NCBI GenBank assembly: GCA_035536915.1
Contig: DATLNE010000030.1
Coordinates: forward strand, 1-48,274
Direction: 5' to 3'
Origin: Acidimicrobiales bacterium
Lineage (GTDB): Bacteria; Actinomycetota; Acidimicrobiia; Acidimicrobiales; JAHWLA01
DNA: 48,274 bases
Made by a program: the position numbers and the translations under genes. The notes under the pieces were generated by a model that worked only from the letters and a program-made list of their open reading frames with translations, was not told where the DNA came from and made no database searches. How positions within the stretch are numbered: position 1 is the first letter of the stretch; each line of letters starts with the position of its first letter. Shown here one piece after another: positions 15,023 through 31,956 of the stretch.

Positions 15023-18865
<3,843 letters not shown>

Positions 18866-18872
18866 CCCCCGC

Positions 18873-18900
18873 CCCGAGTACATAAGGTGCCGAAGAGAGC
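18873..18900 (+). repeat. Left terminal inverted repeat of the TIR/EVE cassette
   Basis: cccgagtacataaggtgcc (18873-18891) pairs with 21128-21146 in inverted orientation, 18 of 19 bases matching. After a 3-base gap gagagc (18895-18900) also matches the right end (21118-21123). Together with the glnD stop, 18863-18883 is identical to 31904-31924 after lhr. Confidence 0.75.
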
Positions 18901-18963: not shown

Positions 18964-19190
18964 TCAGTCTTTCGCCACTGCGTCCGATCCCAACATCGGA
19001 GAAAAAATGATTGAGCTGGCCACGAGGTAAACCGCGGCCACGGTCTCCCCCCGGCTGTTGGGCATGTACCCAAAGGCCATCACAAACCCCGTGACCCAGC
19101 AGAGGGAGCGGTCATCGGGCGAGTTGGGTCCCATGCCGGGATGCGCCGCCGAGTACGGCCCGATGCAGTGGACGTAGCAAGTTCGCCCCG
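18964..19190 (-). other. Apparent frame-shifted C-terminal continuation of the TIR gene
   Basis: In the -1 frame relative to the TIR ORF an open stretch of about 74 codons runs to a TGA at 18966-18964. Most codons end in G or C and it encodes a protein-like sequence (YVHCIGPYSAAHPG..., SLCWVTGFVMAFGYMPNSRGET, AAVYLVASSIIFSP). The TIR frame over the same bases turns into Thr/Arg-rich noise. It has no start codon of its own. A one-base slip at the GGGG run (plus-strand CCCC, 19186-19189) would join them into about 343 residues. Confidence 0.5.
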
Positions 19191-19994
19191 CGTGAAGTCG
19201 ACGGTCTCCAACTGGAAGACGTACGCGGCCATGCAGCCTCCCGGCGGCCGTGTCGGGTCGACCGGGAGATCCTCGTCGCGGACGAGTCCTTCGAACACCT
19301 GAACGGAACCCGCCACTTGGCGGGCGATCACCGTGACGAGCCTGCCGTCCCAGAACGTGTGCGCCCGGAACAGTTCGATGAGAGGCACCGGCTGGCCGCG
19401 GTCTCTTGCTTCCAGTTCAGCCGGGGCCACGCCCTCGTAACCGATGTGTGCCAGGTCCGTTATGGCGAAGTCCTCGCCGAACCGCCGGTCATACTCGGCC
19501 AGGGAGGCAGGCATCCACACCGGCCCATCGGTCCAGCGGAATCCCGTAGCGATCTGGAGGCGCAGCCGCTTGCCGGGCGAGGTGTCCGAAGAGAGAGCAA
19601 GGATCGACTCCACCAGTGCATCGGCGACTCCCTCGACACCAGCTTCGCCGAGGACGGCCGCCGAGCGCATGGCGAGCATGGGCGACTCCGTGCGTATGTT
19701 CGTCTCAGTCGTGTTCCACCACACGGGAAGGATGCGGACCTCCCCGGGTGATTCGAGGCCCATCAGCGCGTCAAGCTCGTTGCGCGTCCACTTCTTGCTG
19801 AAAAACTCTGGGGACAGCATCACGATCCCGAAGTCCGACTCCAAGAGGCCCGCTTCCATCTGCTCCCGGATGCTCGGGCCGACGATGAACCGGTTGAACC
19901 AGACGGTCAGTCCTCGCGCACGGAGCGCCTCCGCGAGCCGCTTGGCGTCAGTTCCGTTCTCGCTAGCGTGAGCCAGGTACGCGTCGTAGGGCAC
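19080..19994 (-). CDS. TIR-domain protein, predicted NAD-cleaving effector
   Basis: A 304-residue ORF. Residues 1-135 are a TIR domain: YDAYLAHASENG (3-14), VWFNRFIVGPSIREQMEAGLLESD, IVMLSPEFFSKKW (57-69) and RNELDAL, where Glu73 occupies the catalytic position of TIR NADases. The rest (about 140-270) is unrecognised: a GFRWTDGPVWMPASLAEYDRRFGEDFAITDL block and a beta-rich WDGRLVTVIARQVAGSVQVFEG block that could sense a ligand or bind a partner. Coding quality collapses after DFTR (269), suggesting a frameshift. GTG start at 19994, no better start upstream. Divergent from the nuclease gene. TIR proteins in bacteria act as abortive-infection NADases or signal-making enzymes. Confidence 0.8.
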   Translation of the reverse strand: MPYDAYLAHASENGTDAKRLAEALRARGLTVWFNRFIVGPSIREQMEAGLLESDFGIVMLSPEFFSKKWTRNELDALMGLESPGEVRILPVWWNTTETNIRTESPMLAMRSAAVLGEAGVEGVADALVESILALSSDTSPGKRLRLQIATGFRWTDGPVWMPASLAEYDRRFGEDFAITDLAHIGYEGVAPAELEARDRGQPVPLIELFRAHTFWDGRLVTVIARQVAGSVQVFEGLVRDEDLPVDPTRPPGGCMAAYVFQLETVDFTRGELATSTASGRTRRRIPAWDPTRPMTAPSAGSRGL

Positions 19995-20056
19995 TCCCCA
20001 GACGATAGGGCTGGGTTCTGCGTCACGAAGGGCGTATCCGTGGCAACCTTCCTCTC

Positions 20057-20947
20057 GTGGCGGACTGGCTGATCAGCGCCAACCTGGCCGTTTACGACGT
20101 CATCGGTTGGTGGGAGGAGACGAACGAACCGGTCGATGCATGGACGCTGAGTCGACCGGCGCCTCGTGTCGCAATCGGCGATCGGTTTGCCCTGTGGATC
20201 GGCGGTCCCGCTGCCGGTGTGTACGCCACCGGCACCATCTCCAAACCTTCGGCGCCAACGACTCGGACCGCCGACCGCTACTGGCTCCGACCCCCTCCCG
20301 ACCCGGTCTACGAACTCCGATTGTCGACTGATCTGTATCTCTTCGATCAGCCGATCTACAGGCGGGACCTTCTCGTCGATCCGCGTTTCGCTGACGCCTT
20401 GGTCGTGCGGATGCCCCGCGCTCGAAACCCGATCCCTCTGACGCCAGTGCAATGGAGTGCGATCGCTGCTCGCCTCCCTTCCCCGGCGGCCCGCAGCCGC
20501 GCCCGCCGGCGACCGAGTACGAGTCTGGGAGCGGTCGTCGTGACGGAGCGGCCTTTGGGCACCAAGGTGGAAGAGGCGGAGTATCAGACCACCCAGGCGA
20601 CAAAGACCCAGCGGTATCGGGAGGCCCGGCTCCTGAAGGCATACGAGCGGAATCTCGGCTACCCACTCGTCGAACGGGCAGCAAAGTTGCCGACCGGGGA
20701 ACGGATCGTCGCGGATGCCTACGACCGGCGGCAACATCGCCTGATCGAGGCCAAAGCAACAACTTCGAGGGCGAACGTCCGTATGGCGATCGGCCAGTTG
20801 CTCGACTATCGACGGCATGTTGCGCAGGGTGCTGCCCTTGCCGTCCTTCTCCCGGACCCGCCGAACGCTGACCTTCTCGCCCTGCTCCGTTCGCACCGGA
20901 TCGAGGTCATTGCCATGCATGGCCGCCGGTTCCGCTCGATTCGGTGA
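20057..20947 (+). CDS. EVE domain-PD-(D/E)XK nuclease fusion, predicted modification-dependent endonuclease
   Basis: A 296-residue protein. Residues 1-135 resemble an EVE (PUA-like) domain: WLISANLAVYDVIGWWEE, a Trp-rich start, IGDRFALWIGGPAAGVYATGTISKPS, the fold that reads modified bases such as 5mC. After a basic linker (140-185), residues about 190-290 look like a PD-(D/E)XK nuclease: Asp220 in VADAYD, E231-x-K233 in LIEAKA, then NVRMAIGQLLDYRRH. This is close to the RIVADAY....LIEAKAT.SR..VR.AIGQLLDY pattern of restriction-like enzymes. It would cut modified phage DNA (type IV-like). GTG start; no ribosome-binding site. Paired divergently with the TIR gene inside the repeat-bounded cassette. 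Confidence 0.75.
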   Translation: MADWLISANLAVYDVIGWWEETNEPVDAWTLSRPAPRVAIGDRFALWIGGPAAGVYATGTISKPSAPTTRTADRYWLRPPPDPVYELRLSTDLYLFDQPIYRRDLLVDPRFADALVVRMPRARNPIPLTPVQWSAIAARLPSPAARSRARRRPSTSLGAVVVTERPLGTKVEEAEYQTTQATKTQRYREARLLKAYERNLGYPLVERAAKLPTGERIVADAYDRRQHRLIEAKATTSRANVRMAIGQLLDYRRHVAQGAALAVLLPDPPNADLLALLRSHRIEVIAMHGRRFRSIR

Positions 20948-21117: not shown

Positions 21118-21146
21118 GCTCTCAAAGGGCACCCTATGTACTCGGG
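21118..21146 (-). repeat. Right terminal inverted repeat of the TIR/EVE cassette
   Basis: ggcaccctatgtactcggg (21128-21146) is the reverse complement of the left repeat with one mismatch, and gctctc (21118-21123) extends the match. An ATG at 21136 falls inside this repeat but is not the likely NUDIX start. Confidence 0.75.
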
Positions 21147-31913: not shown

Positions 31914-31956
31914 CCCGAGTACATGGCGTACGGATTCCGTACGCCATGTACTCGGG
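31914..31956. repeat. Perfect 43-bp palindrome between lhr and nei
   Basis: 20-bp arms (cccgagtacatggcgtacgg) are perfectly complementary around an ATT loop. A hairpin here would end or attenuate the lhr transcript before nei. Bases 31904-31924, starting at the lhr stop codon, are identical to 18863-18883 starting at the glnD stop, so this is a dispersed element rather than a unique terminator. Confidence 0.85.

Follow-up and report, generated by a model that had tools for sequence, protein, structure and literature searches.

Bell, Wolf and Koonin reported in 2020 that putative type IV restriction endonucleases built on a core of either EVE-PD(D/E)XK or EVE-HNH exist in substantial variety (PMC7641849). 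In the EVE-PD(D/E)XK class, an EVE domain and a PD-(D/E)XK nuclease lie in one chain for which restriction of modified DNA has been predicted (PMC7641849). VcaM4I consists of an N-terminal EVE domain of approximately 147 residues, a linker, and a C-terminal HNH nuclease, together about 300 aa encoded by a single ORF without a methyltransferase (PMC7897488, 6yex). Its EVE domain, with pocket residues P24, W82, and Y130, flips either 5mC or 5hmC, its cleavage favors 5hmC, and it restricts 5hmC phage (PMC7897488). The characterized SRA- and winged-helix-linked modification-dependent restriction enzymes (ScoMcrA-like SRA and DpnI_C type) have a reader other than EVE and either HNH or other PD-(D/E)XK nucleases, and McrBC and EVE-McrB systems need the AAA+ GTPase McrB with an adjacent McrC.

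We analyzed an ORF within a window of 48,274 nt, the whole stretch of DNA under study, from contig DATLNE010000030.1 of an Acidimicrobiales bacterium (GCA_035536915.1). The ORF begins with a GTG codon at 20057 on the plus strand, encodes a protein of 296 aa (20057 to 20944), and has its stop codon at 20945 to 20947. An earlier note, made from the sequence, had described the product as a fusion of EVE and PD-(D/E)XK domains, a call that was not trivial because the protein alone was matched by no Pfam, NCBIfam, or PADLOC model. An EVE reader domain of the PUA superfamily (residues 1 to 145, 20057 to 20491) is followed by a basic linker, RSRARRRPSTSLGA (residues 146 to 159, 20492 to 20533), and then by a PD-(D/E)XK nuclease domain (residues 160 to 296, 20534 to 20944). 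This layout is like that of VcaM4I, but the nuclease is of the PD-(D/E)XK type and no HNH match was found. The predicted metal/catalytic site spans 20714 to 20755, with the codons of D220 at 20714 to 20716, E231 at 20747 to 20749, and K233 at 20753 to 20755. In the translation, D220, E231-x-K233, and AIGQLLDY (AIGQLL from residue 244) fell exactly where the note had placed them in the 296-residue chain, and the basic stretch that it had called a linker, RSRARRR at residues 146 to 152, does separate the two halves.

The window protein thus shares with the EVE-PD(D/E)XK class an EVE fold, a nuclease core with intact catalytic residues, and a single ORF without an adjoining methyltransferase. The enzyme type is not new, because such fusions had already been reported in 2020; that paper describes the class and not this protein (PMC7641849). 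We consider it probable, at roughly 78%, that the window protein is a single-chain, NTP-independent, modification-dependent (type IV) restriction endonuclease that cuts modified phage DNA. That it is a single-chain modification-dependent restriction enzyme is well supported, short of proof, and the basis for this is the two folds as predicted models, the conservation of the catalytic residues, and the shuffling of both modules among known restriction architectures.

Relatives and predicted folds

The ORF overlaps a minus-strand ORF of 337 aa (19907 to 20920) in which the contrast in GC content between codon positions (0.71/0.55/0.70) was weaker than in the EVE-nuclease ORF (0.69/0.53/0.74). 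Homologues with both domains in Kineococcus, Geodermatophilus, and Amycolatopsis indicate that the EVE-nuclease ORF is a real gene. When 84,980 genomes were scanned with the single protein as the query, zero relatives were found. The alignment of the nuclease half (A1) returned 120 relatives from the 84,980 species genomes, of which 80 were kept, and 13 from viral contigs; tblastn searches of phage and plasmid records gave no match. Carriers of the nuclease module were mostly in Actinomycetota, and the distribution of the EVE-nuclease relatives was patchy. The layout of EVE plus nuclease was present in four of them, L010 and L011 from Kineococcus, L012 from Geodermatophilus, and L013 from Amycolatopsis, with 37 to 44% identity to the window protein (44% for L010 and 41% for L011). 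The Amycolatopsis protein (L013:3020-3535) has an extra N-terminal region of approximately 170 residues before the EVE and nuclease domains, by eye a second PUA-like domain. Among genomes of the same order, 9 of 198 had a match, the query's own included, and the eight others carried the N-terminal or the C-terminal half alone and in no case both.

An AlphaFold2 model built from 55 aligned sequences had a mean pLDDT of 88.3 and a pTM of 0.77 and gave both folds. When residues 1 to 145 of the model were compared with solved structures by VIA-align, matches were obtained to 2eve (Z 12.3), to human THYN1 with 5mC DNA (5j3e; Z 12.0), and to VcaM4I (6yex; Z 10.7). A profile of eight N-terminal domains of the same EVE type (A5) also matched the PDB sequences of 2gbs (E 9e-6) and 2eve (E 1.5e-5). 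PF01878 scored above its curated cutoff in L013 (E 6.6e-8) and in L003 and below it in L010 to L012 (0.008 to 0.0003). The window protein's own EVE domain fell below every Pfam threshold, and the P that is usual in the N-terminal EVE motif is replaced by L10. Both observations would make sense if no modification were read and a decayed EVE domain served as the DNA-binding or autoinhibitory part of a type II-like or nonspecific enzyme, and in HhiV4I the PUA/SRA-like domain is indeed not the sensor (PMC11037411). We nevertheless regard such decay as very unlikely for the window protein: W4, W29, R118, P120, and P125 were the same in all 8 aligned relatives, W76 was kept in every relative that has that column, and the modeled fold was intact. 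In addition, none of the genes adjoining the EVE-nuclease (TIR, glnD, and NUDIX) is a methyltransferase that could protect a specific site. The aromatic residues W29 and W76, both conserved, are candidates for pocket residues, and W76 may match W82 of the VcaM4I pocket.

For residues 160 to 296, VIA-align gave Z scores of 9.8 for Cdn1 and a Can2-type nuclease, 9.7 for XisH, and 9.3 for NucS. These proteins have the PD-(D/E)XK fold in common with the window protein, with no sequence-level homology detected, and differ from it in their sensor domains and biology; Cdn1 and Can2 are CRISPR ancillary nucleases, and the sensor domain of Can2 is CARF. Searches of the PDB by phmmer and by profile, with the full protein and with alignment A4, gave chance matches only, and no solved nuclease was matched by the C-terminal half at the level of sequence. 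In the model, a helix (188 to 200) is followed by three strands (205 to 210, 216 to 223, and 228 to 232), a second helix (238 to 254), and a further strand (260 to 265), an order that, as modeled, is that of the usual PD-(D/E)XK core. The first core helix carries E189, the central strands carry D220 and E231/K233, and the next helix carries Q247-x3-Y251, which we take to resemble the QxxxY motif of RecB/Cas4-type nucleases. E189, D220, E231, K233, R238, and R242 were identical in all 55 of the aligned nuclease domains. Alignment A4 was gathered with the search pattern A[IV]GQL[FLY]DY[RA], so the constancy of residues 244 to 251 is partly due to selection; the six invariant residues lie outside this pattern, and their invariance was not selected for. 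The predicted fusion of EVE and PD-(D/E)XK was therefore upheld by structural matches for both halves (Z 10.7 to 12.3 and 9.3 to 9.8). The earlier note had said that a predicted structure lacking a PUA-like pocket or the nuclease core would speak against it; the model has an EVE/PUA-like N-terminal domain and a PD-(D/E)XK C-terminal core.

Exchange of modules and the modified base

The strongest argument for a function in type IV restriction is that both halves of the protein accompany known parts of modification-dependent restriction enzymes. SRA (PF02182) was found with the nuclease module in 7 of 46 relatives, and the PADLOC model mREase_IV matched 18 of the 46, the match covering the SRA part of the profile in three of four members inspected. 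The same module was joined to a DpnI_C winged helix in L089 (3.8e-21), and to McrA/ScoMcrA-like N-terminal modules in L055, L072, L080, and L086; in L006 and L019 its partner was an EVE-like domain of a second kind. The nuclease of the window protein is thus placed in its relatives behind readers like those of the characterized SRA- and winged-helix-linked enzymes. Conversely, close relatives of its EVE domain were fused to HNH (L190), Mrr_cat (L194), and a McrB-like AAA+ domain (L195). The EVE-HNH fusion L190, from genome G436, whose EVE domain closely resembles the one in the window protein, is an example of nuclease swapping. This exchange of modules among type IV architectures lends support to the earlier description of the protein as a type IV-like restriction candidate. 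That one unnamed nuclease module appears, on sequence comparison, to be common to EVE, SRA, winged-helix, and McrA-like readers is modestly new; no description of the shared module was found in the literature searched, which is weak evidence of absence.

These fusions also bear on whether the target could be RNA. EVE and YTH folds bind RNA too, and YTH chains were among the structural matches of the model. The EVE domain could accordingly read modified RNA, such as tRNA, and the nuclease could cut RNA or host nucleic acid as a toxin-like or abortive-infection effector; the TIR neighbor suggests the company of cell suicide, and the nuclease fold is like that of Can2 and Cdn1, which are nucleic-acid-cutting effectors. 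We judge this unlikely, since two readers of modified DNA, the SRA domain and the DpnI_C winged helix, are also found joined to the nuclease module, and no small antitoxin-like gene was seen adjoining.

For the restriction of modified DNA, we infer the following course. The EVE domain would flip a modified base into its pocket; the likeliest candidate is a modified form of cytosine, for example 5hmC, or 5mC confined to a limited context. The flipped base would license or tether the C-terminal PD-(D/E)XK domain, which would probably act as a dimer, and nearby incoming modified phage DNA would be cut by metal-ion catalysis at D220, E231, and K233, with defense against phage as the presumed result. 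Genes elsewhere bear on the identity of the base. The host genome encodes a C5-cytosine methyltransferase (E 1.9e-58), on another contig, as well as N6/N4 methyltransferases, and in Kineococcus (L010:333-3094) genes for a NaeI-type restriction enzyme and a C5 methyltransferase lie approximately 0.4 kb upstream of the EVE-nuclease relative. Given the host C5 methyltransferase and the NaeI-type pair, an enzyme that cut at 5mC without restriction would attack the DNA of its own cell unless these methyltransferases were silent, and such a specificity is therefore unlikely for the window protein. Phage bases of the 5hmC type, or 5mC in a limited context, would be more plausible targets.

The TIR neighbor and the split repeat hairpin

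The EVE-nuclease gene is accompanied by a divergent gene for a TIR-domain protein of 304 aa (19080 to 19994, minus strand; PF13676, E 3.1e-16), and the two start codons are 62 bp apart. The C-terminal region of the TIR protein (approximately 140 to 300) had no Pfam match, is conserved in the full-length relative L104, and is possibly a sensor domain. The TIR protein has ThsB matches; the adjoining genes are the EVE-nuclease and glnD, and no ThsA-type effector lies beside it. The earlier note had found it unusual for an EVE nuclease to be linked to TIR rather than to McrBC partners. The locus does differ from McrBC and EVE-McrB in that its neighbors are TIR, glnD, and NUDIX, but an EVE nuclease without McrBC is not in itself unusual, because both EVE-PD(D/E)XK and EVE-HNH single chains have been described (PMC7641849, PMC7897488). 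The linkage to TIR is real at this locus and was conserved in no relative.

The two genes make up an insert of approximately 2.2 kb between glnD (which ends at 18865) and a NUDIX gene (which starts at 21136), with a GC content of approximately 0.65 compared to 0.70 to 0.74 in the flanks. Their divergent arrangement, the 62-bp gap, the shared insert, and their similar GC content would suit a single two-gene system, in which damage or cleavage products from the nuclease activate suicide by the TIR NADase. With tblastn, however, no TIR of the same kind was detected near the nuclease relatives (more than 90 relatives, approximately 4 kb on each side for most loci), a full-length TIR relative with 54% identity was found in a genome (G018) that lacks the nuclease, and linkage cannot be demonstrated from a single locus. 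The idea that TIR is a conserved partner of the nuclease was consequently rejected, and we hold a joint system to be very improbable. The TIR neighbor looks incidental, and the pair probably represents two defense genes that were acquired jointly or inserted at a common site.

The insert is bordered by the arms of a split 43-bp repeat hairpin. The left arm (18873 to 18891, plus strand) and the right arm (21128 to 21146, minus strand) pair as a 19-nt inverted repeat with 95% identity (I1) and are 2,236 nt apart, with both genes between them. In G008 and in the sister genome G001, glnD directly adjoins NUDIX; in G001, a perfect 43-nt hairpin with a 20-bp stem occupies the empty site between them. 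An intact copy of the hairpin (CCCGAGTACATA...TATGTACTCGGG) is also present in the window at 31914 to 31956. Copies of the arm motif, mostly paired in 43-bp hairpins, numbered 50 in the host genome (G000) and 60 in G001, and the motif was absent from the four other same-order genomes searched; the repeat is genus specific. A less perfect split hairpin (L165:2391-3166, contig 9 of G000), with 3 of 19 arm positions mismatched and arms approximately 745 bp apart, holds an ORF of 214 aa (FVDESRRQ...) that had no Pfam match and by eye recalls DUF3800, possibly a second gene insertion. The solitary arms L167, L172, and L176 had no clear partner arm. Insertion of genes into hairpins thus has one further candidate, L165, among the solitary arms checked, and we claim no general rule. 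That TIR and the EVE-nuclease form a cassette, triggered by modified DNA, that moves into the loops of these hairpins is extremely unlikely.

Enzymes of the EVE-PD(D/E)XK class have been predicted, and in the literature searched the characterized EVE nucleases are of the EVE-HNH kind only. The window protein and its relatives from Kineococcus and Geodermatophilus form a compact set for probing how EVE-PD(D/E)XK readers recognize bases. Their nuclease module lacks a model in the scanned Pfam, NCBIfam, and PADLOC collections, yet it is joined to at least four unlike readers of modification, and with a single domain definition for it, many enzymes of type IV restriction would receive an annotation.
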